47,382 nt of DNA from Nitrospiraceae bacterium (GTDB lineage Bacteria > Nitrospirota > Thermodesulfovibrionia > UBA6902): contig QZJG01000021.1 of the NCBI GenBank assembly GCA_003599275.1, positions 1-47,382 on the forward strand, in the 5' to 3' direction. A program made the position numbers and the translations under genes. Each line of letters opens with the position of its first letter. Positions within the stretch are counted from its first letter, which is position 1. The notes beneath the pieces are model-generated. The model made no database searches, was not told where the DNA came from, and saw only the letters and a list, made by a program, of their open reading frames with translations. Below are positions 9,909-29,995 of this stretch, in pieces.

Positions 9909-9935
9909 TTCTTCCTCCTTTTATGTTTATTAACG

Positions 9936-10463: not shown

Positions 10464-10484
10464 ATTCCCTCCTTCAGATTAAAT

Positions 10485-11069
10485 TTAATGAAAGAATGTA
10501 CCGTCCCGGGCAACAAGTCCCAGGAGGAACAAACCAAGAAAAACTATCGTAAAAACCACAAAAGCCAGATAGGCGTCCTTCCAGTTGTAAGGCGCTTCGC
10601 ATGAAGGAAATATCCGCGGTATCAAAACGGGCACCTTCGCAGCTTTCTCCACATCCCTGCTCACGCTCCCTGTAAACAGTCTGCTCAAAAAGGTCTTCCG
10701 GCTTTCGCCGAGGATTATAGCTTCAGCGCTTTCCTCATCCGCCACTTTGAGAATCTCATCCACGGGATTTCCATCCCTGACCATTATCTTTATATTTGTT
10801 TGGCCGCCGGCTTCAATCCCCTTTTTACAGGACGCAAGAATTCCCTCCGCCTTTATGTCCAAAGCCTCTTTGTGCTCTGAGCCCTTGAGTGCTTCCTTCA
10901 ATGTTGACAATTCCGCGTCGCCTAACATGGCAGTCATCAGGGATTTGCCTTCAAGCCTCTCGACATGAAGCAGGACCACCTCTCCGGCCTGCCTTATTTC
11001 ATTGCTGAAGGCTGATAAAGCAGCCCTTGAGCCTTTTGTTTCGTCTATTGCAATCAGTATTTTTTTCAT
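10485..11069 (-). CDS. Universal stress protein with a C-terminal membrane anchor, first of three tandem copies
   Basis: 194 residues. Residues 1-150 are a Usp domain (MKKILIAIDETKGSRAAL ... ILGESRKTFLSRLFTGSVSR ... KVPVLIPRI). The last 30 or so form one hydrophobic helix (AYLAFVVFTIVFLGLFLLGL) and a short tail (VARDGTFFH), so this copy is probably tethered to the inner membrane with the Usp domain in the cytoplasm. Membrane-anchored Usp proteins are uncommon. It retains the best ATP-binding motif of the three (GSVSR). It is the promoter-proximal gene of usp-usp-usp-yedE, with a sigma-54 promoter about 35-50 bp upstream. Tethering near the co-expressed transporter suggests a regulatory partnership, which is inference. 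Confidence 0.9.
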   Translation of the reverse strand: MKKILIAIDETKGSRAALSAFSNEIRQAGEVVLLHVERLEGKSLMTAMLGDAELSTLKEALKGSEHKEALDIKAEGILASCKKGIEAGGQTNIKIMVRDGNPVDEILKVADEESAEAIILGESRKTFLSRLFTGSVSRDVEKAAKVPVLIPRIFPSCEAPYNWKDAYLAFVVFTIVFLGLFLLGLVARDGTFFH

Positions 11070-15736: not shown

Positions 15737-18568
15737 ATGAAACACACTACCCTTCTCATCGCGCCCCTTGGCGCAAAGAATAAAAAGGAAGCGATCTTCA
15801 ATGAGATTGTCTCTCTTTGTCCCGGAAACGATTTCTCGCGGGTATTATATCTCGCGCCCAACACCACTGTTCTCACAGAGGCGAAGGCGCGGTTTTTCTC
15901 CTGTCTGAAAAAAGAGCGCGGGAAGTCCGCATACATCCCGTTTCAGACCTTTACCATTAAGCAGCTTGCAAGGCATCTTCATGAAACAAATCCTCCTCTA
16001 AACTCTAAACTCCAAACTCCAAACTCTGTTATCTCCGACCGCATGAGAACACTTACTCTCTGCGGTATGCTGAAAGAAAAAAACATCGGCTACGCAAGCC
16101 TCCTGTCCGACCTCTTCAGAAAAATCAGGCATTACACCCCGGACAAAGATTTGCCCCGGCTGACGGATGAAATCCGGCAGCTTATATTTGAGGACAAGAC
16201 AAAGGACAGGGCGGTCAGGGCGATGGAGCTTCTTCAGGAGTATGAGAGGTTTTTAGAGGAAAAGAAGCTCATCGATCCTGATGATATGATAAGGAATTGC
16301 GTCTCCTTGCCCCATGCCCTATGCCCCATGCCCCTGACCCTTGTCGTGGACGGTTTCCTTGATCCCACTCCACTTGAATTAGAGATTATAAAGACCCTGT
16401 TTGAAAGCGCGGATAAGGCCGTTATTCTCGCGGAAGAAAACACAGAGCTGTTGCGCTATTTCCTTTCACTCAAGGAAGGGATGACTGTGAAAAAGCTTGA
16501 AAGTTCCCTGCGCAGGGAAACGACAGGCTATTACTCATACAATTCAATGGAAGAGGAAGTAGAAGGGATTGCGAGGAATGTCAAAAAACTTGTCCTCGAA
16601 GGAGTAAGACCGTGGGAAGTAACCGTGTGCTTCCCGTCTCTTTCACAGTACCTTCCCATGCTCCGGAGGGTATTTGCAAAACACGCAATCCCGGCCGATA
16701 TCGGTGAGCGCAGTTTGTCGGCGACAGGGCCGTTTGTCGTGCTGGAAGAAATGATTGCCTGCATGGAGGACGACTATCCGAGGAACGAATTTCTGTCCCT
16801 TCTCACATCTCCGTGCTTTCCGGCAATCGATGATGAGGTAAAAAAGCGGGCCGTGACGCTTTCCTACCGGGCGGGGATTATCAAAGGGAAAGAGGTGTGG
16901 CTTTCAATCGAAGACATTCTTATAAGTTCAAATGACATCTCAGATGAAGAAAAAACAAGGATAAGGGAATTTCAGAAGGGGATTATGCCGGTCATCGCCG
17001 CGCTGGAAGAAATAAAAAATTCCGGAGGAATAACCGCCTATATCGACGCGTTTGAATCCGCATTGGACAAACTCGGTTTTTTTGATTATTTAAAAAATCC
17101 CCCCCTAACCCCATCCCCTCTTGAGAGGGGTGCAGGGGTGTGTGATAGAGGGGAATTTATTCCCCCTTTGAAAAAGGGGGATGAAGGGGGATTTTTTGAT
17201 CATATCCTCCATTCAATTACAAACCTGTTCTCTGATCTGAGACAATTCGCCGGATGGCAGGGAACAGCTTTGAAGGCGCGGGACGCGGGATTTTATCTAA
17301 GGTATCTCCTGCAGGACCTGTCAGCACCGGACGAAAACATCGACGGCGTCAGGGTCATCCCCTTTGAATTAGCGGCGGCGGTCGGGTCAAAGGCCCTGTT
17401 TTTCGGCGGCGTGACTGAAGGCAGCTTCCCGTCGCGTCCCGGCATTGACCCTGTATTACCGGAGAAGGTCAAGAAGACCCTCGGCCTTCCCGACCTCGAA
17501 TACTACCTCGAAAGACAGAGGGCGTACTTCATGAGACTGCTGAATGTCTCAGCGTTCGACCCCTACATCTCCTGCCCGTCTGCAGACGGCGATAAGATAT
17601 TCCTTCCATCGCCGTATCTCGACTGGGAAAAGGCGATATGCCCCCCGGACCTCAATATTTTCACAGAAGAAGACGTCCTTGTACGGGAAGGTCCCGGCTT
17701 AAGGCCCGGCAATGAAAAGGCATACTTCGATGCAAAGGCTACCGGCATGTTGCGCGGACGGATTAACGCCATGTCAAAAAAATATTTCAGGGTGACGGAC
17801 CTTGATTATTACAGGAAATGTCCCTTCAGATTTTATATTGAAAAAGTATTGGGACTCGAAATGGGAAAGCCGCCGAGATTCGAGGTGGAATACAGGCAAT
17901 GGGGCAACATCGCGCACAGGACCATGGAGAATTTATTCAAAGGCGGAGACTGGGGACTGGATGAATTCGAAGAGAGACTTTTCAGCGCCCTCAATAAGAG
18001 CCTGAAGGAACTCCCGCTCGGCCCGTTCTGGGCCTCTGTGACAGGAGAAATATTCCGCAATCTCCTGCCCATGCTGAAAAAACAGGAGGCGGAAATCAGG
18101 ATGGAGGGATTCAGCCCATGGCTGATTGAGGAAAAAATAGAGGCGGAGATTGACGGGATAAAATTAAGAGGGAAGATTGATAGGATTGATAAAGAAAAGT
18201 CAGAAGTCAGAAGTCAGAAGTCAGAAGTAAAACAACAACGGACGACGGACGACGGACAACGAAGGTCGGTCATTCTTCTCGACTATAAGACCGGCTCGAT
18301 TGACAGGAAGAGCCTTCAATTGCCGCTTTATGCCCGGATGTGGCAGGAAAGCCGCTCTGAGCAAGTGTTGAAGACCGGCTATTATTCTCTGAAAGAAGGC
18401 AGGGTGAGCTGGTATCCGTCAAAAAATAAAAGCTTGGAGGAAATTATCCGGGAAGCCCTGCAGGAAGCAACGGCATTAATTGAGCAGATGAAGAAAGGCC
18501 TGTTCCCGGCAGAACCGGACAATAATGAATGCAGGAATTGCGGGCATGACGGGCTGTGTGAAAAATAA
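15737..18568 (+). CDS. addB: ATP-dependent nuclease subunit B (AddB-like), carrying in-frame repeats
   Basis: AddB pairs with AddA in the helicase-nuclease that resects double-strand breaks for RecA. The 943-residue product has an inactivated helicase-like N-terminus and a C-terminal PD-(D/E)XK nuclease with its Fe-S cluster: KCPFRFYIEK near residue 692, AHRTMENLF, GKIDRID near 812, LLDYKTGS near 848, and CRNCGHDGLC at the very C-terminus. At least four stretches are low-complexity dispersed repeats translated in frame (near residues 87-97, 191-200, 452-487 and 820-842), absent from ordinary AddB. The frame is unbroken. The gene precedes addA by 80 bp, the usual order. Confidence 0.9.
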   Translation: MKHTTLLIAPLGAKNKKEAIFNEIVSLCPGNDFSRVLYLAPNTTVLTEAKARFFSCLKKERGKSAYIPFQTFTIKQLARHLHETNPPLNSKLQTPNSVISDRMRTLTLCGMLKEKNIGYASLLSDLFRKIRHYTPDKDLPRLTDEIRQLIFEDKTKDRAVRAMELLQEYERFLEEKKLIDPDDMIRNCVSLPHALCPMPLTLVVDGFLDPTPLELEIIKTLFESADKAVILAEENTELLRYFLSLKEGMTVKKLESSLRRETTGYYSYNSMEEEVEGIARNVKKLVLEGVRPWEVTVCFPSLSQYLPMLRRVFAKHAIPADIGERSLSATGPFVVLEEMIACMEDDYPRNEFLSLLTSPCFPAIDDEVKKRAVTLSYRAGIIKGKEVWLSIEDILISSNDISDEEKTRIREFQKGIMPVIAALEEIKNSGGITAYIDAFESALDKLGFFDYLKNPPLTPSPLERGAGVCDRGEFIPPLKKGDEGGFFDHILHSITNLFSDLRQFAGWQGTALKARDAGFYLRYLLQDLSAPDENIDGVRVIPFELAAAVGSKALFFGGVTEGSFPSRPGIDPVLPEKVKKTLGLPDLEYYLERQRAYFMRLLNVSAFDPYISCPSADGDKIFLPSPYLDWEKAICPPDLNIFTEEDVLVREGPGLRPGNEKAYFDAKATGMLRGRINAMSKKYFRVTDLDYYRKCPFRFYIEKVLGLEMGKPPRFEVEYRQWGNIAHRTMENLFKGGDWGLDEFEERLFSALNKSLKELPLGPFWASVTGEIFRNLLPMLKKQEAEIRMEGFSPWLIEEKIEAEIDGIKLRGKIDRIDKEKSEVRSQKSEVKQQRTTDDGQRRSVILLDYKTGSIDRKSLQLPLYARMWQESRSEQVLKTGYYSLKEGRVSWYPSKNKSLEEIIREALQEATALIEQMKKGLFPAEPDNNECRNCGHDGLCEK
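15996..16026. repeat. Iterated AAACTCC units inside addB
   Basis: Tandem CTAAACTC/CCAAACTC units read in frame as NSKLQTPNS. The same units occur in the fabF insertion. Confidence 0.65.
16309..16336. repeat. Iterated CCCATGCCC units inside addB
   Basis: TGCCCCATGCCCTATGCCCC-type tandem units read in frame as PHALCPMPL within AddB. Confidence 0.6.
17092..17197. repeat. 106-bp inverted-repeat-bounded insertion inside addB
   Basis: Begins AAAAAATCCCCCC (17092-17104) and ends GGGGGATTTTTT (17186-17197), with internal hairpins CCCCTCTTGAGAGGGG and CCCCCTTTGAAAAAGGGGG. It is translated as a Pro/Gly-rich stretch (PPLTPSPLERGAGV, then PPLKKGDEGGFF). The ends are mutually inverted, as in a small mobile element. 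Confidence 0.75.
18196..18262. repeat. Iterated AGTCAGA / ACGACGG units inside addB
   Basis: Four copies of AGTCAGA followed by three GGACGAC units, translated as KSEVRSQKSEVKQQRTTDDG inside the AddB nuclease domain, between GKIDRID and LLDYKTG. Confidence 0.75.
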
Positions 18569-18648
18569 AGGGAACTAAGAACCAAGATCATAGAACACAG
18601 ACTTTTAAATCTTTGCTCTTTGCTCTTTGCTCTTTGTTCTGGAAAATT

Positions 18649-21600
18649 ATGAGTTACCTCGATACAAACAAAAGCATAATGATCTCCTCGCCTGCGGGCT
18701 CCGGCAAGACCGAGAAGCTTGCCCGGCGTTACATTGCCCTTCTGCAGGACGGGGTGGATGTCGAGAGGATACTTGCCATTACTTTTACGGAAAAGGCCTC
18801 AGCGGAGATGAAGCAGAGGATACTGAGGATTCTTAAAGCTGAAGATGAGAAGTTGTTCCGTTATCTTATCGACAGGATACCTCTTATGCGTGTCTCCACG
18901 ATCCATTCTTTCTGCGGGACCCTGCTCAGACGCTTTTCTTTTGACGCCGGTATCGACCCGAATTACGGCATCGCCGACGACAGCGATTCAGCCATGGAAT
19001 GGGACGAGGTCCTGCACGATGTGTTGATGGACGTAGGGGCACGGCGTACCCCCCTTTTAATTCCCCCCTTGGCAAGGGGGGACTCAGAGGGGTCAAATAA
19101 TACCGACTTCATCCTGCAGACCCTCAGCGAGAAGGGATTCAGGGGACTGGATTATCTCAGGGGCACAATGGATTACCTTTTTCAGAAAGGGCCTTTTTCG
19201 CTCGAAGCGGGACCCTTTTCCCATGTCTCGTCGGTTTCCGGTGAGCTGACAGAGGAATTGCGGTCGTGGGAAGGAGCAGCGGATGCCGTAGACAATTACG
19301 AAAAGATTTTTACAGAAGGTACGCAAAAAGAAATAGTCTCTATTGAAGACTGTTTTTTGACGAAAGATGGAACGCCCCGTAAAAAGACGCCTGCCGGGTT
19401 AAAGGGTATCAGAGGTTATCAGGAATGGGCGGTAAAAATGCACCACTACTGGAAGGACGTCATGCTTGAGGAATTTGCAAAGCGGAGCGGACGGATATGG
19501 AAAATATTCAACACCTGTCTGGTCAAATACATGGCCAGGAAAAAGGCAAAGGGGGTCCTCGATTTCAGCGACCTTGAATATCTTGCATACAGGATGCTGA
19601 CTGACAACCCTGAATGGTCGAACATCCTGTATGCCTTTGACGAAAAGACCGACCATATCCTCGTTGATGAATTTCAGGACACCAATAATTTTCAGTGGGA
19701 GGTCATTAACAAGCTCACCGAGGAATGGCGCTCCGGAATGGGAGCAAAGAGGGAGGAAGGGACCAGGCCGACGATATTTTTTGTGGGAGACGAAAAGCAG
19801 TCGATATATTTTTTCAGGGGTGCCAACGTGGAGATTTTCCGCAGGGCAAAGCAGCAGATGGAGACCTGGCTCGGGGACGAATTTCTATATGAAGAGGCAA
19901 AGGAGAATTACCGCAGCCGCCCGGCAATTATTGAATTCACAAACCAGGTCTTCTCAAAGATCATGCGCCAGCCGGAGAGATATCCGTGGATAACCCGTTA
20001 CACCCCTTTTAACGCCCGGAGGCCCGGCCTTCCGCATCCGGGGCGGGTCGAGCTGGTCCTGCTTCAGCCGGATGAAGACTCGGGGATGGATGAGCGGAAA
20101 CAGAAAGAGGCCGGAGTCATCGCACGAAGAATAAAGTCCCTTGCCGGTAACTTTGAGATCGCGGACCGGGGCAGTGAACAGAAGAGGTCATGCAGGTATT
20201 CCGACATAGCGATCCTGCTGAAAAAAAGGACTCATCTCGCGCCGTATGAAGAGGCCTTGCGGAAATACAATATCCCCTTTGTCGCCGTTAAGGGGATCGG
20301 GTTTTACCAGGAGACCGAAATCGCTATGCTCAGGGCGCTCATATTTTTCCTGTCGGACCCGCATGACGATTACAGCCTGTACACGCTCCTGAAAAGCCCC
20401 CTGTTCAATATCGCCGAAAGCGAAATTCTTGAGTTGGCCGGCATTGAAGGAGAGAGTCTGTTTGAGAAGATGCAGGCAGGGGAGGACACACCCCTTAATC
20501 CCCTCTTGATAGAGGGGAAAACTCCACCCTTGACCCTTCTTCAAAATTGGCTTGCACAGTCGGCGTACTTACCGATTGCGGAATTGATCGAACACGTCCT
20601 TGTAAGCACAAAGGCGTGGCGATATTTTCACGAAGAACAGAAAAGGGCGAACATTAAAAAATTTATACGCATTGTCGAAGACCTCGAGGCCAAAGGCAAA
20701 TCGCTTATCAGAGTAAGAGATTATCTTGAAAGGACGGCGGACGAGCAGGAGGCAAAGGCGAACGTGAATACCGAGGGCATGGACGCCGTGAAGATAATGA
20801 CCATTCATGCCGCCAAGGGGCTTGAGTTTCCGGTGGTCTTTGTGCCGGGGATTGAGGAACGGTTCACTCCCAAAACCGGCGACAACCTTATATATGAATC
20901 ACCTTCTCCTTCCCCCTCCTCTTTTTGTTTCAAATCCATCCCGGAGGCATCCATCCGCAAGCAGGATGATGACTACCTGGTCCATGAAGCAAAGGAGATG
21001 GAAGAACAGAAGAGGCTCTTCTATGTCGCCGTTACAAGGGCGGAAGAGGCGCTCATTCTCACCGGACACCAGGGCGGCGGGGACAACAGCTTTTTAGGGT
21101 TTCTCACGGAAGGACTGGGACTTCAGGAGCGGGATGGGACAATCGTTACAGACTCCGATCTAAAGGGACTGGCAATGCTTACGGAAGAAGACATTGAAAT
21201 GCTTTATGACTATGCCGATAAAAAGGAGGCAGCCCCTGCTGACCGCCGCAGGGTCGAGATCGTCCCCGTTTCTATGCCGAAGCGCTCTCCCTGGAAATCC
21301 GTAACCGAAGCCGTTGAGGTCCGAAGGAGACACGGCGAGGGATGGATGGTCCTCGGGGACGTAATGCACAGGATTTTTGAAGGCATATCGAAGGGGGGTT
21401 TGAAAGAGCAGGATATAAAAGCGTATGCGGAAAGACTGCTTGAGTCAAAAGGAATCCATGGAAAAGAAATAGACGAAAAGACCGCGATAATCGAAAAAGA
21501 TGTAGAAACCCTCAAGGGAAAAGGCGTCTGGCAGGAAATCATGATGCCGGCTGAAAATTCATTCGCCGAGCTTCCGTTCATACTCGAAGCCGGAGACAAT

Positions 21601-21822
21601 GTCTATAACGGAAGGATCGACAGGGTCATCAAAGAGAATGATATATACAAAATTTATGACTACAAGACCTTTCCGGTCAAAGAAGATGAAGTCGGGTATC
21701 TTCTGAAGGAATACTCGTTTCAGATGAATATGTACAAGAAGGCCGTGAAAGAATTATTCAACACAAACTCCGTGAAGTCGTTTATCGTGTTCACTCACAC
21801 GGGGGAGATATATGAGGTGTAA
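18649..21822 (+). CDS. addA: ATP-dependent helicase/nuclease subunit A (AddA-like)
   Basis: UvrD-type 3'-5' helicase fused to a nuclease; with AddB it processes DNA breaks and degrades foreign linear DNA. From ATG 18649 (MSYLDTNKS) the 1057-residue protein has Walker A SPAGSGKTEKL (about 14-24), motif Ia AITFTEKASAEMKQR, Walker B VDEFQDTNNFQ (about 340), GDEKQSIYFFRG, motif IV NYRSRP, motif V TIHAAKGLEFPVVF and motif VI YVAVTRAEEAL (about 790), and a C-terminal nuclease GDVMHRIFEG ... GRIDRV ... YDYKTF. Earlier in-frame TTG codons lie in a TTTGCTC tandem repeat, so I reject them. At least two insertions of dispersed repeat (about residues 129-149 and 613-628) are translated in frame. Confidence 0.93.
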   Translation: MSYLDTNKSIMISSPAGSGKTEKLARRYIALLQDGVDVERILAITFTEKASAEMKQRILRILKAEDEKLFRYLIDRIPLMRVSTIHSFCGTLLRRFSFDAGIDPNYGIADDSDSAMEWDEVLHDVLMDVGARRTPLLIPPLARGDSEGSNNTDFILQTLSEKGFRGLDYLRGTMDYLFQKGPFSLEAGPFSHVSSVSGELTEELRSWEGAADAVDNYEKIFTEGTQKEIVSIEDCFLTKDGTPRKKTPAGLKGIRGYQEWAVKMHHYWKDVMLEEFAKRSGRIWKIFNTCLVKYMARKKAKGVLDFSDLEYLAYRMLTDNPEWSNILYAFDEKTDHILVDEFQDTNNFQWEVINKLTEEWRSGMGAKREEGTRPTIFFVGDEKQSIYFFRGANVEIFRRAKQQMETWLGDEFLYEEAKENYRSRPAIIEFTNQVFSKIMRQPERYPWITRYTPFNARRPGLPHPGRVELVLLQPDEDSGMDERKQKEAGVIARRIKSLAGNFEIADRGSEQKRSCRYSDIAILLKKRTHLAPYEEALRKYNIPFVAVKGIGFYQETEIAMLRALIFFLSDPHDDYSLYTLLKSPLFNIAESEILELAGIEGESLFEKMQAGEDTPLNPLLIEGKTPPLTLLQNWLAQSAYLPIAELIEHVLVSTKAWRYFHEEQKRANIKKFIRIVEDLEAKGKSLIRVRDYLERTADEQEAKANVNTEGMDAVKIMTIHAAKGLEFPVVFVPGIEERFTPKTGDNLIYESPSPSPSSFCFKSIPEASIRKQDDDYLVHEAKEMEEQKRLFYVAVTRAEEALILTGHQGGGDNSFLGFLTEGLGLQERDGTIVTDSDLKGLAMLTEEDIEMLYDYADKKEAAPADRRRVEIVPVSMPKRSPWKSVTEAVEVRRRHGEGWMVLGDVMHRIFEGISKGGLKEQDIKAYAERLLESKGIHGKEIDEKTAIIEKDVETLKGKGVWQEIMMPAENSFAELPFILEAGDNVYNGRIDRVIKENDIYKIYDYKTFPVKEDEVGYLLKEYSFQMNMYKKAVKELFNTNSVKSFIVFTHTGEIYEV
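19035..19094. repeat. GC-rich hairpin repeat inside addA
   Basis: Contains CCCCCCTTGGCAAGGGGGG-type inverted arms, translated as a Pro/Arg/Gly-rich loop (RTPLLIPPLARGDSEGS). It belongs to the same class as the repeat in addB at 17092. Confidence 0.65.
20487..20531. repeat. Repeat ACACCCCTTAATCCCCTCTT inside addA
   Basis: Followed by GATAGAGGGGAAA, giving the translated peptide TPLNPLLIEGK. A nearly identical repeat is translated in the same frame inside the res gene (27516), encoding TPLNPLLIEGN. Confidence 0.8.
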
Positions 21823-21924: not shown

Positions 21925-24225
21925 ATGGACGGAGAGTCACTCGACATAAAACAGGCAAGGATGCAAAAGCTGAAAGAGCAGTTTCCCGACCTCTTCGTTG
22001 AGGACCAATTAGACTGGGAAAAGCTGAAGGCCGCTTTTGGCGATGATATCAACTTTGCCAATGAGCGCTATGTATTGAATTGGGCCGGTAAGAGCGATGC
22101 CTTTAGAGTTCTGCAGCAACCTACCACCGCCACTTTGAAACCCTCGCCGGAAGAATCCGTCAACTTCGAGACAACTGAAAACCTTTTCATTGAAGGTGAA
22201 AATCTGGAAGTGCTGAAGGTTTTGCAGAAAGCATATTACGGTAAAGTCAAAGTAGTTTGCATAGACCCGCCATACAATACAGGAAGTGACAGCTTTATTT
22301 ACCCCGACAGATTCAGCGAGAAGAAAGAAGATTATCTGAAGCGCATCGGCGACAAGGACGAAGAAGGCTTCTTGATGAAAGAAGGTCTGTTCCGTAAGAA
22401 CAGCAAAGACAGCGGACACTATCACAGCAACTGGCTCAGCATGATGTACCCCCGTCTGTTTCTTGCCAAAAACCTGCTGCGCGATGACGGAGTAATCTTC
22501 GTTCACATTGACGATAACGAGGTTCATAACCTGCGGATGGTAATGAATGAGATTTTTGGTGAAGAGAATTTTATAGCAAGTTTTATCTGGAAAAGAAGAC
22601 AAAATGTAGATAGTCGCTCCAAAAATGGTGCATCAGTAGATCATGAATATCTTCTATGTTATCGGAAGACAGATAAAGGCTTGATAAGAGGGGCTGAAAA
22701 AGATTTAACCAAGTATTCCAATCCCGATAATAATCCACGTGGTGATTGGATGAGCGCAGATATGACCGGGTTGGCAACCCCCGACCAACGGCCAAACTTG
22801 CATTATGACATTGAAGATCCTAAAACGGGAATAGTTTACAAATGTCCGTCTACAGGATGGCGGTATGAACCAAAGCGCATGAAGGAATTAATACAAAATA
22901 ACGAGGTTATATTCCCTCCCAAGCCAGATGGAAGACCGCGTAGAAAGAAATTCTTAAATGACTTAAAAAGTGATTTCACTGGTTTTTCAACTATCCTTGA
23001 AACAGTATTTAATACTCAAGGAACGAGAGAACTACGAGCGTTATTTGAAGAAAAAGAATATTTTGATTTTCCTAAACCCAAAGAACTTTTGCAGCAAGTA
23101 TTAGAACAAGGATCATCAATTAATCAACACGATATAATTCTTGACTTCTTTGGAGGCTCAGCCACCACAGCCCAAGCCGTTATGGAACTCAACAAAGAAG
23201 ACGGCGGCAACCGCAAGTTTATTTTAGTGCAAATGCCTGAGCAATGCGATGAAAACAGTGAGGCTTATAAAGCAGGCTACAAAACTATTGCCGATATTGC
23301 CAAAGAACGCATCCGCAGGGTGATTCAGAAACAAACCTCACCCCCGGCCCCTCTCCTTAAAGAGAGGGGAGAGGAAGCCTCTTATGCGCAAGAATTATTT
23401 AGAGGGGCAGGGCCTGCTCTGTTTTTGAACGCACGTGGCATGAGGAAAGAAAAAACAGAAGCAGAAGATAAGTTGTGGCAGGCGCTAAGAAATAAACGGA
23501 TAGAGAATTGCAAGTTCAGAAGGCAACATCCTATTGGTAATTTCATTGCTGATTTTTACTGCCATGAAAAGAAATTGGTAATAGAAGTTGACGGGGGCTA
23601 TCACGACGAAAAGGAACAACAGGAGTATGATAAGGCAAGAACACAAATCATTAACGAATCTGGAGTAAAAGTAATAAGATTTCTTAACGAAGAGATTTTG
23701 AATAACTTAACAGAAGCATTGAAGAAGATTTCCGAAGCTTTGGTTTCCCCCTCGCCTTCAGGAGAGGGAGCAGGGGGTGAGGTAGGCTTCAAGGTATTTA
23801 AGCTGTCATCATCCAATTTCAAAATCTGGCGAGGCGCTGATATAGACAGCGAAGAAAAGCTGCTTGAGCAGCTTAATGCCTTCACTGACCCCATCAAGCC
23901 CGGAGCTGAAAAGCAGAATATGCTTTACGAGCTTATGCTCAAGGCAGGTTATGGACTAACCAGTAAGGTGGAATATATAACATCTCCAGTAGGGGCGGGT
24001 TTGAAACCCGCCCCTACAAAACATAAGGCTGGCTTTTACAGCATCAACAATAACGATCTCATCATTGCCCTCGATGCAATGAATGAAAAATTGATAGACC
24101 AAATCATCGCCGCCAAACCACAAAAGGTGATCACCCTTGATAGTCTGTTCACCGGAAATGACCAGTTGAAGACAAACACCGTATTGCAGATGCGGGATGC
24201 GGGGGTGGATTTAAAAACCGTATGA
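21925..24225 (+). CDS. mod: Type III restriction-modification methyltransferase (Mod), interrupted in frame by a DUF559 nuclease
   Basis: Mod recognises the target site and methylates adenine, and is required by Res for cleavage. Motif IV DPPYNTG is at about residue 114 and the SAM motif FFGGSATTAQA at about 408 (beta-class order). The C-terminus matches Mod (GFKVFKLSSSNFKIW, then the end TNTVLQMRDAGVDLKTV). Between KERIRRVIQK (about 468) and GFKVFK (about 621) a 149-codon segment encodes a separate DUF559 endonuclease (own entry), and another 29-bp palindrome is translated near residue 690. The frame is open throughout, so a fused 766-residue Mod-DUF559 protein could be made, though folding and activity are unproven. 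Res is 3 kb downstream rather than adjacent. Confidence 0.9.
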   Translation: MDGESLDIKQARMQKLKEQFPDLFVEDQLDWEKLKAAFGDDINFANERYVLNWAGKSDAFRVLQQPTTATLKPSPEESVNFETTENLFIEGENLEVLKVLQKAYYGKVKVVCIDPPYNTGSDSFIYPDRFSEKKEDYLKRIGDKDEEGFLMKEGLFRKNSKDSGHYHSNWLSMMYPRLFLAKNLLRDDGVIFVHIDDNEVHNLRMVMNEIFGEENFIASFIWKRRQNVDSRSKNGASVDHEYLLCYRKTDKGLIRGAEKDLTKYSNPDNNPRGDWMSADMTGLATPDQRPNLHYDIEDPKTGIVYKCPSTGWRYEPKRMKELIQNNEVIFPPKPDGRPRRKKFLNDLKSDFTGFSTILETVFNTQGTRELRALFEEKEYFDFPKPKELLQQVLEQGSSINQHDIILDFFGGSATTAQAVMELNKEDGGNRKFILVQMPEQCDENSEAYKAGYKTIADIAKERIRRVIQKQTSPPAPLLKERGEEASYAQELFRGAGPALFLNARGMRKEKTEAEDKLWQALRNKRIENCKFRRQHPIGNFIADFYCHEKKLVIEVDGGYHDEKEQQEYDKARTQIINESGVKVIRFLNEEILNNLTEALKKISEALVSPSPSGEGAGGEVGFKVFKLSSSNFKIWRGADIDSEEKLLEQLNAFTDPIKPGAEKQNMLYELMLKAGYGLTSKVEYITSPVGAGLKPAPTKHKAGFYSINNNDLIIALDAMNEKLIDQIIAAKPQKVITLDSLFTGNDQLKTNTVLQMRDAGVDLKTV
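23336..23782 (+). mobile_element. DUF559 endonuclease mini-element with terminal inverted repeats, inside mod
   Basis: Exactly 447 bp (149 codons). The left end reads CCTCACCCCCGGCCCCTCTCC (23336-23356); the right end GGAGAGGGAGCAGGGGGTGAGG (23761-23782) is its imperfect inverse. Next to each end is an inner hairpin (CCCCTCTCC...GAGAGGGGAG on the left). The body encodes a complete DUF559/Vsr-like PD-(D/E)XK domain: EAEDKLWQALRNKRIENCKF, HPIGNFIADFYC, KLVIEVDGGYH and VKVIRFLNEEIL, starting after RGMRKEK. No clear target duplication is seen (AAA on the left, TAG on the right). DUF559 genes next to such GC-rich repeats recur in environmental genomes, so this may be a home-made or repeat-mobilised nuclease. 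Confidence 0.75.
23989..24017. repeat. Palindrome GTAGGGGCGGGTT...AACCCGCCCCTAC inside mod
   Basis: A perfect 13-bp inverted repeat around TGA (three-base loop), 29 bp in total, read in frame as VGAGLKPAPT. The same palindrome class lies between genes at 2340-2366. Confidence 0.8.
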
Positions 24226-24374
24226 GCCAGATTATTGAACCTTCCTATCGGTTTGCCGGCGTCGGCAAACCGATCGAGGGGGGTAAGGGTCATGAATTCA
24301 GCTCTGGCCGCCGCAAGATCACCGTCAAGGTCGTGGACATATTCGGGAATGATACGATGAAGATTATGGAGTGA
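24222..24374 (+). pseudogene. 50-codon remnant after mod, possibly a helicase/Res C-terminus
   Basis: Starts with ATG overlapping the mod stop by 4 bp (ATGA) and ends at a TGA at 24372. The first half (MSQIIEPSYRFAGVGKPIEG) spans a perfect palindrome; the second half (RRKITVKVVDIFGNDTMKIME) looks like the extreme C-terminus of Res-like helicases. This chimeric look, the tiny size and the coupled start suggest the scar of a deleted downstream res gene that keeps its original start context. Family assignment is from memory and tentative. Confidence 0.5.
24247..24274. repeat. Palindrome around GCCGGCGTCGGC, first of two copies
   Basis: ATCGGTTTGCCG (24247-24258) and CGGCAAACCGAT (24263-24274) are perfect inverse arms around GCGT. 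They encode YRFAGVGKPI. A second copy with different arms but the same core lies at 25338-25367. Confidence 0.7.
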
Positions 24375-24390: not shown

Positions 24391-25212
24391 ATGGGTAAAA
24401 TCAAAGTATTGAATAAGGAGATCACTGTATATACGCGGAACGAGGAAGATTATATCTGCATCACCGATATCGCAAGATATAAGAACCCGGATAGAACAGA
24501 TGATTTAATCAGAAACTGGCTTAGAAACCGGAATACTATCGAGTTTCTTGGAATCTGGGAGCATCTTAACAATCCTGATTTTAAACCCGTCGAATTCGAC
24601 GGGTTTAAAAAACAGGCAGGACTTAACAGTTTTACATTGACCCCCGGTCAGTGGATTGAAAAAACGCACGCTATCGGTATCGTTTCAAGACCGGGTCGTT
24701 ATGGCGGCACGTATGCGCACAAAGATATTGCCTTTGAATTTGCTTCCTGGATTTCCGTTGAATTCAAGCTTTACCTCATCAAGGAATTCCAGCGGCTCAA
24801 AGATGAGGAAAAGAAACAACTCGGATGGGATATAAGGCGTAATCTTACCAAGATAAACTACCGGATACATACAGATGCGATCAGAGAGAAGTTGATTCCT
24901 GCTGAACTCACCAAAAATCAGATCAACAACATCTATGCATCCGAAGCCGATGTGCTGAATATGGCGCTTTTTGGTAAAACTGCCAAGGATTGGCGTGATG
25001 AGAATCCTGACAAAAGAGGAAACATCCGCGATTATGCAGATATTTCGCAACTGGTCTGTCTCTCAAATCTTGAAAATCTTAATGCTCATTTTATCAATGA
25101 CGGCTTATCACAGGAAGCAAGGCTGCTTAAATTGAATAAAATCGCTATTCAGCAGATGAAACTGTTGACTGAAGATACCAAGATCAGGAAATTAGAGACA
25201 CGTGGCAAATAA
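24391..25212 (+). CDS. KilA-N domain protein
   Basis: 273 residues. An N-terminal KilA-N DNA-binding domain of phage/Bro type: CITDIARYKNPDRTDDLIRN, then FLGIWEHLNNPDFKP, TPGQWIEKTHAIGIVSRPGR, the signature GGTYAHKDIAFEFASWISVEF (about 108-130) and FKLYLIKEFQRLKDEE. The C-terminal half is helical and coiled (LTKINYRIHTDAIREKL, DVLNMALFGKTAKDWR). Such genes are often found with restriction systems and prophages, where they are probably nucleic-acid binding accessory or regulatory factors. It sits between mod and the GmrSD-type gene. Its stop overlaps the next ORF's ATG by one base. Role within the defence cluster unknown. Confidence 0.85.
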   Translation: MGKIKVLNKEITVYTRNEEDYICITDIARYKNPDRTDDLIRNWLRNRNTIEFLGIWEHLNNPDFKPVEFDGFKKQAGLNSFTLTPGQWIEKTHAIGIVSRPGRYGGTYAHKDIAFEFASWISVEFKLYLIKEFQRLKDEEKKQLGWDIRRNLTKINYRIHTDAIREKLIPAELTKNQINNIYASEADVLNMALFGKTAKDWRDENPDKRGNIRDYADISQLVCLSNLENLNAHFINDGLSQEARLLKLNKIAIQQMKLLTEDTKIRKLETRGK

Positions 25213-25463
25213 TGGCTATACATCCATCATTTCCTCAGTCGCCATATGAATTATTGCACCCTGATTACCGTTGGTTTCCAGCGGACGATGCGCTTCGCGA
25301 ATCCAGCTATGAAAAGCAGGAGATATTGAAGCTAAACAATCATTTTGCCGGCGCCGGCAAAATGATTGAGGGTGGCAAGAGTGCAGTGCAAACGGTTAAT
25401 GACTATCATCTGTCACGTTTTGCCTGCTATTTATTTTCAGGGGTGGTTTTTAAGATAATATGA
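25212..25463 (+). pseudogene. Chimeric remnant: Res-type N-terminus fused to a DinD-like fragment
   Basis: 83 codons. The first 35 residues (MAIHPSFPQSPYELLHPDYR, then WFPADDALRESSYEK) match the opening of type III restriction/helicase subunits, and after EILKLNNHF the sequence switches to HFAGAGKMIEGGKSAVQTV NDYHLSRFACYLF, as in DinD/BRO-type damage-inducible proteins, then stops after 12 more residues. The junction coincides with a 30-bp perfect palindrome. Neither half is complete, so I regard it as a deletion/recombination product; it is translated in phase with the KilA-N gene by TAATG overlap and might still make a small peptide. Confidence 0.6.
25338..25367. repeat. 30-bp perfect palindrome around GCCGGCGCCGGC, second copy
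   Basis: AATCATTTTGCCGGC (25338-25352) and its perfect inverse GCCGGCAAAATGATT (25353-25367), with no loop. It encodes NHFAGAGKMI at the point where the remnant changes from Res-like to DinD-like sequence. Compare with 24247-24274. Confidence 0.75.
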
Positions 25464-25486
25464 GTTTGTGAGAATATAGTAAAATC

Positions 25487-25511
25487 AACTATTCGAGAAA
25501 TTCGAATAGTT
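25487..25511. promoter_or_regulatory. 25-bp palindrome upstream of the GmrSD-type gene
   Basis: AACTATTCGA (25487-25496), spacer GAAAT, TCGAATAGTT (25502-25511): perfect 10-bp inverted arms in an AT-rich segment, ending one base before the AAAAGGAG ribosome-binding site. Either an operator (as for a controller protein) or a hairpin that can occlude the ribosome site. A controller gene is not adjacent; the KilA-N protein is a candidate binder. Confidence 0.65.
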
Positions 25512-25528
25512 CAAAAGGAGCAAACACT

Positions 25529-27205
25529 ATGAAAGGCATAAGAGATACTTCAAGTGAAACGTATCGCCAGTTAATGGGCAATGGATTGCAATATGAAATC
25601 CCTAAATTCCAAAGAGACTATTCATGGGAATCTGAGCATTGGGATGATTTGTGGCAGGACATACGCTCACTGAATTTTGAGGAGTCAGAGCATTATATGG
25701 GCTATCTTGTCCTGCAAAGTTCTGATAATAGAAACTTTCAGGTAATTGACGGTCAGCAAAGGCTCACGACTTTAAGCCTGCTTATCCTTTCAGTTTTAAA
25801 GTGCTTGCAGGAGTTGGCGGATAAAGGGATTGATGCCGACCAGAATATTAGGCGTAAGGAAACATTGATGAATAGCTACATCGGCTATTTGGACCCTGTA
25901 ACGCTTCTATCGAAAAACAAGCTAAAACTGAATCGTAACAATGATGATTACTTCAGAAACTACCTTGTGCCGCTGCAAAGCTTGCCGATCAGAAAAATCA
26001 ACGTTTCGGAAAAACAGATGAGGAGTTGTTTTCTGTGGTTCTATGAAAGGATTAAGAAAGATTATGTCACAGGGGAATCACTGGCTGGATATATAGACAG
26101 CATCGTTGATAAACTTTTTTTTACAGTAATCAAAGTCTCCGATGAGTTAAACGCCTTCAAGGTTTTTGAAACACTGAATGCAAGAGGCGTGAAGTTGTCA
26201 TCATCAGATTTGCTGAAAAATTACTTGTTCTCAGTAGTAGACGCCACTAATCCGCATAAATCTGAACTGGACGAAATGGAACATCTCTGGAGCAAGGTAA
26301 TAGACAAACTCGGGAGTGAAAAATTCCCTGAATTCCTGAGATGCTACCGGAACAGCTTGAATAAAACCGTCAGGAAGAATGATCTCTTTAAAGCAATCCG
26401 TAAAGATATTAAGACAAAAGGCGATGCGTTTTTACTGATTCGTGAATTAAATAACAATGCCGATGTATATATGGCTCTGCAAAATCCTGATGATGATCTC
26501 TGGAAAGGAAAATCTGATATTTCAGGTTATCTGAAGGAGTTGAAACTGTTCCAGGTAAAACAGCCTTTTTCACTTTTGCTGGCTGCTTATAACTCATTGG
26601 CAGAACCCGAGTTTAAACGCGCACTGAAGGCCTGCTCTTTCATCTCATTCCGGTATAATGTCATTGGCGGTCTGAATCCAAACGAACAGGAAATCGTTTA
26701 CAATGCGGTAGCATTGAGCATCCGCAAAACCAGACAGTTTAATATCACTGATTTACGTGATATTTATCCTGAAGATGATCGGTTTGAAACCGAATTTGCG
26801 AGCAAGACATTTAAAAGCACTCCCAGAAACCACAGGATTGCTAAATACATTTTCGCCGAAATTGAAAGGTACAAGTATCATACAGATATAGATCAAACGA
26901 GCGATCTTTACACCATTGAGCATATTTTACCTGAAAGCGCAGGAGACGAGTGGAACTATCTTGAAGATGATGTCGTTGAAAAATGCGTTTATCGTTTGGG
27001 GAACTTAACACTTTTAGAAAAAAACCTGAATAAGGATAGCGGAACAACTAGTTTTGAAAACAAGAAAGCTGTTTACGCCAAAAGCAGCATTCAGTTAACC
27101 CGGACAATAGCTGAAAATTACATTGGATGGACTGAAGAAACAATATCTCAAAGACAAGCCCGGTTAGCTGTTGAAGCGAAATCCATATGGCGCTTGCCGC
27201 TCTGA
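25529..27205 (+). CDS. GmrSD-type DUF262/DUF1524 nuclease
   Basis: 558 residues. The N-terminal DUF262 (GmrS-like) domain has YEIPKFQRDYSWE and the nucleotide-binding motif VIDGQQRLTTL at about residue 74, plus FKVFETLNARGVKLSSSDLLKNYL. The C-terminal DUF1524 (GmrD-like HNH) domain has TIEHILPES at about 462 and RLGNLTLLEKNLNKDSG. GmrSD is a type IV modification-dependent restriction enzyme that cuts glucosylated hydroxymethylcytosine DNA; this protein fuses both parts, so it is most likely an anti-phage nuclease, perhaps for modified DNA. An AAAAGGAG lies before ATG 25529 and a 25-bp palindrome before that. It lies between mod and res of the type III system. Confidence 0.9.
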   Translation: MKGIRDTSSETYRQLMGNGLQYEIPKFQRDYSWESEHWDDLWQDIRSLNFEESEHYMGYLVLQSSDNRNFQVIDGQQRLTTLSLLILSVLKCLQELADKGIDADQNIRRKETLMNSYIGYLDPVTLLSKNKLKLNRNNDDYFRNYLVPLQSLPIRKINVSEKQMRSCFLWFYERIKKDYVTGESLAGYIDSIVDKLFFTVIKVSDELNAFKVFETLNARGVKLSSSDLLKNYLFSVVDATNPHKSELDEMEHLWSKVIDKLGSEKFPEFLRCYRNSLNKTVRKNDLFKAIRKDIKTKGDAFLLIRELNNNADVYMALQNPDDDLWKGKSDISGYLKELKLFQVKQPFSLLLAAYNSLAEPEFKRALKACSFISFRYNVIGGLNPNEQEIVYNAVALSIRKTRQFNITDLRDIYPEDDRFETEFASKTFKSTPRNHRIAKYIFAEIERYKYHTDIDQTSDLYTIEHILPESAGDEWNYLEDDVVEKCVYRLGNLTLLEKNLNKDSGTTSFENKKAVYAKSSIQLTRTIAENYIGWTEETISQRQARLAVEAKSIWRLPL

Positions 27206-27272
27206 TATATGAAACTTAATCTCAATATCAGTGAGACCTCCGAACATTAGCTGACGCACTATAATGTCAGCT
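27202..27272. promoter_or_regulatory. Two short inverted repeats upstream of res
   Basis: CTGATAT (27202-27208) with ATATCAG (27225-27231), and AGCTGAC (27249-27255) with GTCAGCT (27266-27272). The first overlaps the stop of the DUF262 gene. Either could be an operator or hairpin before res; neither has a T run, so they are not typical terminators. Confidence 0.4.
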
Positions 27273-27295
27273 CTTAACAATACTTGAAAAAAATT

Positions 27296-29995
27296 ATGAA
27301 ACTCCACTTCGACAGTAATCAGGAATACCAGATTGAGGCCATTAGGGTCGTTACCGATATATTTGAAGGGCAGCCTTTGAGCGGCGGGGACTTTGAATTC
27401 TCTTTGACCGAAACAGGCGCATTACTTTCTGAAAATGGTGTCGGCAACAGGCTGACATTGACTGAAGAACAGATTTGGGAGAATGTAAAAAGCATCCAGC
27501 AACGCAACGAAATTAACACACCCCTTAATCCCCTCTTAATAGAGGGGAATTCAAAAAGAGATTATCCTCTTGATAGAGGGGATCACATAGCATTGCAGGG
27601 AATGAATTTCTCTATAGAAATGGAGACAGGCACTGGCAAGACCTATGTGTATCTGCGGACCATCTATGAATTGAACAAACTCTACGGATTCAAAAAGTTT
27701 GTAATTGTTGTCCCTTCAGTTGCCATTCGCGAGGGGGTTTTAAAAAATCTTCAAATCACCCACGAACACTTTCAAACCCTTTATGATAAGGCGCAAATCA
27801 ATTATGACGTGTATGACAGCAAGAAGGTCTCACATCTAAGAGGCTTTGCTGCCGGCAATGCCATTCAGATACTTGTTATAAATATTGATGCCTTTGCCAA
27901 AGACGAAAATATCATTAACAAGCCTAATGACAAACTAACCGGCAAAAAGCCGATTGAATTCATTCAGAGCATCAACCCGATTGTGATTGTGGATGAACCG
28001 CAGAATATGGAGACGGACATTCGTAAGAAGGCGATTGCAAATCTAAATCCGCTTTGCACGCTTCGCTATTCTGCCACCCACACAAACCTTTACAATCTGA
28101 TGTATTCCCTTAATCCGGTAAAGGCGTATGATCTGGGGCTTGTGAAGCAGATAGAGGTTGACTCTGTAATAAGCGAGAATGCCATGAATGAGGCATTCAT
28201 TCAGTTAGAGAAGATAAATGCAGCCAAAACAAAAATTACGGCAAAAATCAAGATTGATTGCAATACGGATAAAGGAGTGGTCAAGAAATCTGTCAGCATT
28301 AAGGCTGGTGACGATATTTATAAGCTCAGCAAAGAAAGGGAGATTTACAAAGAAGGTTTTATTATTGACGAAATAGACGCAGGCAACGGCACAATCACTC
28401 TCACTAATGGTTCCATGCTTTCAGTAGGCGAAACGCAAGGCGGAATGAATGATGACGTAATGAAATATATGATTCGTAAAACCGTTGAGGAACATCTCAA
28501 AAAGGAGCGAGCTTACAAAGGCAAAGGCATTAAAGTGCTGTCTCTGTTTTTCATCGACAAGGTCAGGAACTACCGGGAATACGACGCGAACGGAAATCCT
28601 GTAAAAGGAAAGTTTGCCGGGTGGTTTGAAGAGATATACCGGCAGGAGATTGCCAAACCTGCTTTCAAAAGTTTGCCGCACTATCCCGCTGATGTGCTTC
28701 ACAACGGTTATTTCTCACAGGACAGCAAAGGCAGAGTAAAGGACACTGGGGGCGAAAGTCAGTCAGATGATGACACTTATAGATTGATAATGCAGGACAA
28801 AGAAAAACTCCTTGACCCTGCTACGCCGCTTCGCTTTATATTCAGCCATTCCGCATTGCGTGAGGGTTGGGACAACCCGAATGTGTTTCAGATATGCACG
28901 TTGAACGAGACCAAATCGGAAATTAAGAAGCGGCAGGAAATAGGGAGGGGGCTGCGGCTATCTGTAAATCAGGACGGACAACGGATATTTGACCGCAACA
29001 TGAACAAGCTGACGGTAGTGGCCAATGAACGCTACGAAGATTTTGCCAAGGCCTTGCAAAATGAAATACAGGAAGATTGCGGGGTGGATTTCACTGGAAG
29101 GCTAAAGAACAGAGGCGACAGGCAAAAAATCAGTTTGCGTAAAGGTTTTCAGGCAGATCCTAAATTCCTGCAGATTTGGGAAAAGATAAAATTCCACACT
29201 CGATACAGCGTTGATTACAAAACAGATGAATTGATTGTCATGTCTGCTAAAGCAGTGAAGATCATGTCTGAAACGAAAAAGCCGACCATCAAGTCAACCA
29301 AGAAAAGAGTTTTAATAACTGAGGAAGGAGTCGGCGGGCTGCTGGTGAGTGACGGCATAAATGACGATTATGGACTCGGATTTGAAATACCGGACATGCT
29401 GGCTTATGTCCAGTCAAAGACCGAACTGACCCGGCACACAATTTTAGAAATTCTTAAACGGTCCGGAAGATTAAATGAGCTGCTGCTCAACCCGCAACTT
29501 TTTATGGATAATGCGGTATCTGCCATTAAATCGGTGCTATATGAATTAATGGTGGACGGCATCAAGTATGAAAAGATCGGCAATAAGATTTTTGAAATGA
29601 CATTGTTTGAAGACAATGAACTGGAAATATACCTTGACCGGTTCTCATTCATGGTAAACAACACGGACAAAACCATTTATGACAATTATATTCCGCTTGA
29701 TTCATCTGTTGAAAATCAGTTTGCCAGAGATTGTGAGAGCAGTGAGAACATCGAGTTCTTTTTCAAACTCCCTTTCTGGTTCAGGATAAATACCCCCATA
29801 GGCACTTATAATCCGGATTGGGCGATAGTCTTCAAGGGCGAAAAGACAATCTATTTCGTGGCGGAAACAAAAAGCGCAGATCAGGAACTGAGAACGAGCG
29901 AACAAATGAAGATTAACTGCGGTAAAGCGCACTTTAACCAGTTTGATGATGTAACATTTAAAGGGCCGATTTCGTCGGTTTCGGAATTGACCTAA
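27296..29995 (+). CDS. res: Type III restriction enzyme subunit Res
   Basis: The ATP-dependent helicase-nuclease that, with Mod, translocates and cleaves DNA. From ATG 27296 (MKLHFDSNQEYQ) the 899-residue protein has Walker A METGTGKTYVYL (about 108), VVPSVAIREGVLKNL, Walker B with the type III signature VDEPQ (about 232), motif LREGWDNPNVFQICTLNE (about 522), KRQEIGRGLRLS, and a C-terminal PD-(D/E)XK nuclease, GTYNPDWAIV ... FVAETKS (about 840-860). A translated repeat (27516-27591) sits near the N-terminus, between NEIN and the strand before Walker A. The TAA is directly followed by the ksgA ATG. Confidence 0.95.
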   Translation: MKLHFDSNQEYQIEAIRVVTDIFEGQPLSGGDFEFSLTETGALLSENGVGNRLTLTEEQIWENVKSIQQRNEINTPLNPLLIEGNSKRDYPLDRGDHIALQGMNFSIEMETGTGKTYVYLRTIYELNKLYGFKKFVIVVPSVAIREGVLKNLQITHEHFQTLYDKAQINYDVYDSKKVSHLRGFAAGNAIQILVINIDAFAKDENIINKPNDKLTGKKPIEFIQSINPIVIVDEPQNMETDIRKKAIANLNPLCTLRYSATHTNLYNLMYSLNPVKAYDLGLVKQIEVDSVISENAMNEAFIQLEKINAAKTKITAKIKIDCNTDKGVVKKSVSIKAGDDIYKLSKEREIYKEGFIIDEIDAGNGTITLTNGSMLSVGETQGGMNDDVMKYMIRKTVEEHLKKERAYKGKGIKVLSLFFIDKVRNYREYDANGNPVKGKFAGWFEEIYRQEIAKPAFKSLPHYPADVLHNGYFSQDSKGRVKDTGGESQSDDDTYRLIMQDKEKLLDPATPLRFIFSHSALREGWDNPNVFQICTLNETKSEIKKRQEIGRGLRLSVNQDGQRIFDRNMNKLTVVANERYEDFAKALQNEIQEDCGVDFTGRLKNRGDRQKISLRKGFQADPKFLQIWEKIKFHTRYSVDYKTDELIVMSAKAVKIMSETKKPTIKSTKKRVLITEEGVGGLLVSDGINDDYGLGFEIPDMLAYVQSKTELTRHTILEILKRSGRLNELLLNPQLFMDNAVSAIKSVLYELMVDGIKYEKIGNKIFEMTLFEDNELEIYLDRFSFMVNNTDKTIYDNYIPLDSSVENQFARDCESSENIEFFFKLPFWFRINTPIGTYNPDWAIVFKGEKTIYFVAETKSADQELRTSEQMKINCGKAHFNQFDDVTFKGPISSVSELT
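27516..27591. repeat. Repeat ACACCCCTTAATCCCCTCTT inside res
   Basis: Two tandem half-copies of an ATAGAGGGGA hairpin unit, translated as TPLNPLLIEGN then SKRDYPLDRGD. The first matches the repeat in addA at 20487 almost base for base and in the same frame. Confidence 0.8.

Follow-up and report, generated by a model that had tools for sequence, protein, structure and literature searches.

How does a nuclease domain come to lie in frame, between two inverted repeats, inside a DNA methyltransferase gene? The question is raised by contig QZJG01000021.1 of a Nitrospiraceae bacterium (assembly GCA_003599275.1), from which the whole stretch of 47,382 nucleotides that was analysed is called the window here. 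A type III mod gene in the window is interrupted by a 447-bp element that consists of a DUF559 nuclease domain and a palindromic repeat on either side. The element is very probably an inserted, palindrome-bounded mobile unit. A fuller account, in which it is a non-splicing, homing-like nuclease element that would cut unoccupied alleles and in which the repeats would have a part, is favoured with a rough probability of 0.58. The host gene and the element have the following features.

21925–24225, forward strand: type III mod (DNA methyltransferase) gene, interrupted in frame, 766 aa
23336–23782, forward strand: inserted element, repeat, DUF559, repeat, 447 bp
23336–23374, forward strand: left end, C-rich head CCTCACCCCC and hairpin CCCCTCTCCTTAAAGAGAGGGG
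23425–23742, forward strand: DUF559 PD-(D/E)XK / Vsr-like nuclease domain, mod residues 501–606
23747–23782, reverse strand: right end, inverted head-hairpin repeat with the head pointing outward
23989–24017, no strand assigned: second, unrelated in-frame palindrome of mod, GTAGGGGCGGGTTTGAAACCCGCCCCTAC, read by eye

The initial annotation, made from the sequence before this analysis, had described a block of exactly 149 codons with the mod frame continuing on either side, and both coordinates and frame agree with this: CCTCACCCCC begins at 23336, GGGGGTGAGG finishes at 23782, the element begins on codon position 2, and the frame from 21925 to 24225 is open on both sides. The host gene matches the PADLOC model for a type III methyltransferase, and Pfam places N6_N4_Mtase at residues 108–437 and DUF559 at residues 501–606. 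The block does encode a complete domain, as the match spans positions 5–108 of the 109 in profile PF04480 (E 3.7e-36), and D42, E53, D55, and H59 are kept (domain numbering from 23428). Imperfect inverted ends are also present as described earlier; the length of 21–22 bp given for them did not hold, since the two ends align across 33–35 bases. Each end combines a C-rich head (CCTCACCCCC) with a separate hairpin, which is CCCCTCTCCTTAAAGAGAGGGG in the left end and the imperfect CCCTCTCCTGAAGGCGAGGG in the right end. Judged by their sequence, the ends are hairpins with a C-rich head that resemble repetitive extragenic palindromic (REP) sequences, and not classical transposon terminal inverted repeats (TIRs); the end sequence varies by element. 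The second palindrome of mod is a perfect one of 29 bp that starts with GTAG and lies in frame downstream of the DUF559 block; the mod protein of a relative, G029, has no residues matching it. A predicted model of the full Mod-DUF559 protein had a mean predicted local distance difference test score (pLDDT) of 53.7, scores being higher in DUF559 and in some of the C terminus, and was left unused as evidence.

The block is read as an insertion because mod alleles without it exist in relatives of the window's order. Among 47 genomes of this order, G029 has the closest mod (92% identical to that of the window over residues 1–470 and 81% over 619–766), and nothing at that place matches DUF559. Genomes G040 and G046 have a short plain linker at the position of the element. 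The empty alleles that had been suggested as a check were thus found, and the domain is not common to all mod homologues. DNA identity between the window mod and its relatives reaches within a few bases of both ends of the element, and no target-site duplication is visible at the mod junction, where the linker was replaced.

The window domain is 34–47% identical to 20 other aligned domains of its order. Its nearest relative, L106 from a Bacteroidetes record, is 63% identical and sits in the same linker of a mod gene, which argues for a homing-like rather than a cut-and-paste process. The window mod is itself nearer to the G029 mod (83% C-terminal, 88% N-terminal) than to the L106 mod (72% and 58%). 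The outward heads of the window copy agree with the Bacteroidota type. In taxonomic groups typed by hand from record titles, the heads of in-frame Bacteroidota copies pointed outward in 22 cases, inward in none and were mixed in 3 (no call in 7), and those of stand-alone Bacteroidota copies pointed inward in 2 and outward in 1 (no call in 9). All copy classes of the window's order gave 35 inward and 3 outward (no call in 5), with stand-alone copies giving 33 and 1 (no call in 3), and in-frame copies of Proteobacteria gave 10 inward and none outward (no call in 3). Hairpin pairs of stand-alone copies were in/in in 29 cases and out/out in 1, and those of in-frame copies out/out in 18 and in/in in 5; repeat orientation as a mark of in-frame insertion was rejected, as orientation tracks lineage. 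A strict window-type end pattern, from which the imperfect ends in the window itself deviate, was absent from the own genome and six others of the order. Of 12 other genomes, 5 gave 1 to 3 matches, and the match in G047 and in G058 is a DUF559 element's own end. These sequence comparisons suggest that the window copy most likely came from Bacteroidota-type DNA.

Copies of the domain were also found in frame in many other genes. Four of 123 DUF559 loci contain stops and 50 of the remaining 119 lie in long frames (>150 aa upstream or >120 aa downstream), a proportion that is not a population frequency, since the named loci, the best 80 of 555 relatives, were picked for their similarity to four domains and found with search patterns that include the active site. 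Left out of the 123 were L004 (a Vsr-like partial match), L063, L101, and L103–L105 (partial or broken), and duplicates; long frames of the order with a weak match to PF04480 (E 1e-8 to 1e-4) are likewise outside the counts. Another host family was recognized by Pfam in 39 of the 40 in-frame proteins scanned, with host domains on both sides of DUF559 in 28 (counted from tables by hand). The hosts include Leu-, Ile-, and Val-type tRNA synthetases, RecG, UvrA, Mfd, HrpA-type and Lhr-type helicases, MetH, methylmalonyl-CoA mutase, MazG, poly(A) polymerase, GH31, GHMP kinase, IspF (with DUF559 fused in front), HsdS, and several methyltransferases. No intein family was found in the 40 proteins, at an E limit of 1 for the window protein and 1e-5 for the others. 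With in-frame copies in so many hosts and no intein family, the earlier idea of a translated intragenic nuclease insertion that does not splice is upheld; from the open frame and the lack of an intein domain we infer that the fusion protein is made and stays unspliced.

The range of hosts also bears on the other possibility that the initial annotation had raised, a selected fusion of nuclease and methyltransferase, which would be a new single-chain restriction-modification architecture. The three in-frame copies among 43 loci of the order all lie in restriction-modification genes (mod, another methyltransferase, and hsdS), and named copies occur in the methyltransferases L111, L123, L139, L147, L156, and L174, as such a fusion would predict. 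As an origin for the block it is nevertheless highly improbable, because tRNA synthetases, RecG, MetH, and other proteins carry the same domain, and unrelated housekeeping genes make up most of the other in-frame hosts that were scanned. Near mod relatives lack DUF559, and L106 retains it though its mod is without the catalytic part. Among the hosts, L170 and L185 have DUF559 at different positions of an HrpA-type helicase, the two domains being 83% identical. A leucyl-tRNA synthetase frame (L158, 317–2836) holds two divergent DUF559 domains in two loops, and a class I tRNA synthetase frame (L178, 1577–5299) holds DUF559 and a GNAT acetyltransferase domain, both inserted in frame.

In-frame copies at the same site of the same host gene are more alike than others. 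For 26 in-frame copies in eight host gene/site groups, same-site pairs had a mean identity of 0.674 vs 0.525, with 0 of 2000 permutations as high, and the nearest neighbour was within the same group for 20 of the 26; L124, L135, L144, L151, L176, and L184 were grouped by frame size and flank similarity, not by Pfam. A further site lies upstream of ispF in the genus of the Prevotella record G051 (L125), where the ispF region was matched in 198 of 200 genomes. Seventy of these sites were examined (the 30 best matches, 11 with a match running further into the site, and 29 in list order), of which 13 hold a full DUF559 element, 8 a solo repeat, and 49 neither, the right flank being missing in three of the 49. 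Automated calls had given 10 solo and 47 empty sites, and L267 and L280 were set aside from the solo class by eye. The nearest relative of the reference genome, G257 (left flank 88% identical), has the left repeat only, at the same place. Presence at the ispF site barely follows descent: on a flank tree of 67, the distribution of DUF559 requires 10 changes, where 500 shuffles of the labels gave a mean of 12.0 and a minimum of 8. L221 and L225 have sister flanks (0.83 identical) and domains merely 0.65 identical, and L219/L223 and L226/L228 agree in both flank and domain, as under vertical descent; over all 13 copies at the site, the correlation between identity of the domain and identity of the flank is weak (rho 0.226, a value reached in 222 of 2000 permutations). 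The G051 domain is 55–76% identical to 12 same-site domains of other species and 45–58% identical to five other copies in its own genome (a sixth, very weak match was left out of the comparison). Eleven of the 12 same-site copies (at least 62%) lie above the whole own-genome range and L234 (55%) lies within it. Occupied and unoccupied alleles with a sporadic distribution at one site, as observed in mod and at ispF, are a criterion for homing endonuclease genes.

The predicted structure of the DUF559 domain (pLDDT 80.8) was matched by Foldseek to the homing endonuclease I-Bth0305I (3r3p; E 2.4e-4, TM 0.70), and also to NGO0050 (3hrl) and weakly to Vsr (E 0.075). D42, E53, D55, and H59 are present in all 50 in-frame and in 67 of 69 stand-alone copies, a retention that for E53–H59 is biased by the search patterns. 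The ratio of non-synonymous to synonymous substitution rates (dN/dS) was <0.22 in 22 of 23 computable pairs (30 overlapping pairs tried). Retained catalytic residues, low dN/dS, and patchy site-specific presence together favour homing. The element would then be selfish, a single nuclease gene of the DUF559 (Vsr/EDxHD-like) type with an inverted REP-like hairpin repeat on each side, and would have entered the linker of Mod in frame, to be translated as an extra, unspliced domain. The nuclease would cut unoccupied alleles at or near its site, and recombinational repair would copy the element into the cut allele. Occasional jumps to new genes may use dispersed palindromes as landing pads, although the palindromes could also be recognition sites or hitchhikers. 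As nothing that could splice the element out was found, a new insertion would be expected to persist only at positions where a folded domain does no harm to the protein, presumably in loops that accept it on flexible, repeat-encoded linkers. Of the minimal nuclease-coding mobile element with repeat ends that was first proposed, the inserted, translated unit remains and the simple TIR or cut-and-paste transposon does not.

The recurrence of DUF559 genes beside repeats, stated in the initial annotation, is widely seen. Among the 123 loci, C-rich hairpins flank DUF559 on both sides in 88, on one side in 23, and on neither in 12, compared with 0, 10, and 73 of 83 control flanks taken 700–920 bp away (40 of the 123 loci were too short for control flanks and were dropped from the control). 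The left and right ends of an element also match each other. For 44 loci of the order (L044 and L099 are one place, counted twice here and once in later counts), the median inverted match was 39.5 vs 21.0 for mismatched pairs, and 21 of the 44 exceeded the 95th percentile of mismatched pairs. For 78 of the 80 named loci (two were without sufficient flank), the medians were 36.0 and 19.0 and 37 exceeded that percentile. Within 18 multi-copy genomes an element's own right end was its best match in 44 of 55 elements, with one tie and 18 expected. Since many DUF559 copies have matched inverted ends, the expectation of other copies with similar ends was confirmed in this wider sense; for the strict window-type end it failed in the own genome and the six other genomes of the order.

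Repeats of the same kind are also dispersed away from the nuclease. A loose head and hairpin pattern had 90 matches in the own genome (29 and 61, overlapping sub-matches included), or 47 places by hand count, and none when read backwards. For two elements of the own genome, L001 and L003, solo repeats of the type that forms their ends are present. Repeats of the L003 type were found in 27 of the 47 genomes of the order, and where L003-like DUF559 is known they number 121 in G038, 38 in G011, 26 in G039, 18 in G000, and 10 in G012, some of the DUF559 copies in G011 and G012 being broken or cut. Such a distribution could suggest an analogue of the REPtron, in which DUF559 would act as a transposase-like nuclease that nicks or cuts head-hairpin repeats, moves solos and doublets, and is itself carried between two of them, as is thought for the REP-associated tyrosine transposase (RAYT) and REP. 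The matching ends within elements and the dispersed solos of L001 and L003 agree with this, as does the presence of L003-like DUF559s in G038 and G011, the genomes richest in L003-type repeats. DUF559 protein similarity correlates with end similarity as well (overall rho 0.234, a value that none of 300 Mantel permutations reached), and flanks 600–760 bp away gave a rho of 0.066 overall and 0.04–0.14 by subset. The Y1 transposase (RAYT, PF01797) was matched in 20 of 24 DUF559-bearing genomes, which tells against such a role for DUF559, and had no match in 4 of 24, which speaks for it. A need for RAYT was rejected because of these four genomes; the gene between the window repeats is DUF559 and not RAYT, and the own genome's only Y1 match is on another contig. 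The analogue is unlikely on balance, as the same-site nuclease lineages suit homing better than free transposition and as two observations on the repeats themselves, given next, do not fit it.

Several points weigh against the homing-like account, and the first two count against the REPtron analogue too. Twenty-two genomes have 1–30 L003-type matches and no close DUF559 among the fetched loci. Many palindrome pairs of G011, together with its DUF559 copies, ride within other TIR-bearing elements, namely miniature inverted-repeat transposable elements (MITEs) that resemble insertion sequences (ISs). In some genomes where DUF559 had no match, a generic hairpin pattern is overrepresented (G022, for instance, has 269 against 88 for the control), and from this and the L003-type repeats in such genomes it follows that other machinery may spread repeats. 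The mod junction is not a clean insertion, since the G029 mod linker carries a different in-frame palindromic insert and most of the linker present in G040 and G046 is missing from the window mod. The ispF site is intergenic or N-terminal and not within a gene, and own ends are not clearly better matched there than other ends (median 50.5 vs 44). The same-site groups were set after the hosts were seen, by hand, and host gene is confounded with taxonomy; one group, I/ValRS-A, shows no same-site clustering (0 of 4). The sampling of the named loci, by active-site patterns and as the best 80 of 555, is biased, and nuclease cutting, homing, and transposition are all presumed from sequence.

The G011 elements bring in another explanation, in which DUF559 would be a passenger retained because it serves the host, for instance in Vsr-like repair or restriction, the repeats and their cargo being spread by other systems (RAYT, IS-derived MITEs, or inter-repeat recombination). 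DUF559 copies in G011 share the outer ends GGTTCTTTCTCAT...ATGAGAAAGAACC, and the palindrome pairs lie in MITEs with GTAACCGTTCAC ends and, at some copies, 8-bp direct repeats (by eye). One DUF559 protein, VsrA of Caulobacter, is linked with a solitary methyltransferase in the accessible part of its description (PMC12907096). A passenger explains neither a site-specific lineage with patchy presence nor the catalytic residues in 50 of 50 in-frame copies of unrelated hosts, the latter being partly a matter of ascertainment, and it is rather improbable. A cut-and-paste transposon with autonomous and MITE forms, considered for the multicopy family of G011, was rejected, since the copies turned out to be enclosed in IS-like MITEs whose terminal repeats are different. 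The MITE family of G011 and G012 with GTAACCGTTCAC ends (L303–L315, L320, and L321) has a head-hairpin pair inside, and the DUF559 copies L316–L319 adjoin GGTTCTTTCTCAT-type ends.

Homing-like nuclease elements of the kind favoured here have partial counterparts among known systems, several of which are known to us through the accessible parts of their descriptions. The EDxHD or Vsr-like homing endonucleases, with I-Bth0305I, have the closest characterised homing-type fold and a patchy presence at fixed sites; the family name and the intron context of I-Bth0305I are given in PMC3943268. In contrast to I-Bth0305I, the element has no intron or intein found around it, is palindrome-bounded, and is read inside a host protein, and it is a single domain of ~105 aa without the extended DNA-binding region described for I-Bth0305I in the accessible text (PMC3943268). 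A DUF559-containing gene of Thermosynechococcus has been assigned to the EDxHD homing family and is treated, in the accessible text, among intein-containing genes (PMC9403480), whereas the elements here have no intein family. REPtrons similarly have an enzyme gene between tagged palindromes, and solo repeats and doublets elsewhere (PMC3733652, in part); their enzyme is an HUH tyrosine transposase and their tag GTAG/CGTC, as opposed to a DUF559 PD-(D/E)XK-type domain and a C-rich head. Rickettsia palindromic elements also place palindromic DNA in frame in many unrelated genes (PMC10969869, in part), but are ~150 bp long as described there, whereas a complete nuclease domain is carried here.

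Escherichia coli YcjD, Neisseria gonorrhoeae NGO0050, and Caulobacter VsrA belong to the DUF559 family or its closest fold (PMC12907096, PMC1189080); they are stand-alone genes, and the accessible parts of their descriptions mention neither flanking palindromic repeats nor in-frame copies. Downstream of the E. coli DUF559 gene ycjD (L252, 1481–1834) lies a C-rich hairpin repeat, and the N. gonorrhoeae homologue (L247) is flanked on each side by a similar C-rich repeat, both oriented alike. Of 5426 genomes, 3362 contain most of the ycjD region. As a clean empty/full site ycjD was rejected, as the three opened records without ycjD have efflux genes beside sapF, which are eefRABCD according to the accessible part of PMC12817139.

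No report of repeat-bounded or in-frame DUF559 elements was found in the searchable literature, which mostly leaves out subscription journals and bioRxiv preprints. Homing nucleases, REPtrons, and in-frame palindromes are known separately, and their combination looks new. DUF559 is a poorly described family, PF04480 still being named a protein of unknown function, and annotators should not assume a functional fusion where a DUF559 domain lies inside leucyl-tRNA synthetase, RecG, or a methyltransferase. It may tentatively be proposed, at less than even odds, that the elements form a widespread class in which a palindrome-bounded homing nuclease of ~105 aa invades essential genes in frame and persists as a harmless translated domain; the nuclease might also act on C-rich palindromes and so supply a mobiliser for REP-like repeats.

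The surroundings of mod hold further repeats of this kind, three of them in frame in neighbouring genes.

27284–29995, forward strand: type III res gene, the partner of mod (PADLOC: type III restriction enzyme), with an in-frame solo repeat at 27516–27549
20486–20521, forward strand: solo head-hairpin repeat in frame in an AddA-like helicase gene
17115–17142, reverse strand: solo head-hairpin repeat in frame in an AddB-like gene (15737–18568)

The repeat at 20486–20521 is of the same family as the ends of another DUF559 element of the own genome (C3:84588). The AddB-like and AddA-like genes together (15737–21822) contain several different in-frame palindromic repeats, and the same AddA loops in related genomes have other repeats or none. 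Two 44-bp copies of another palindromic repeat (80% alike) lie at 24247–24290, just after mod, and at 25339–25382, before a GmrSD-type gene. This gene and a KilA-N gene (PADLOC HEC-06/Orf5 models) are situated between mod and res in the region 24391–29995. Farther away, three diverged 300-bp direct repeats spaced ~0.6 kb apart at 9545–11005 are probably tandem paralogous genes.

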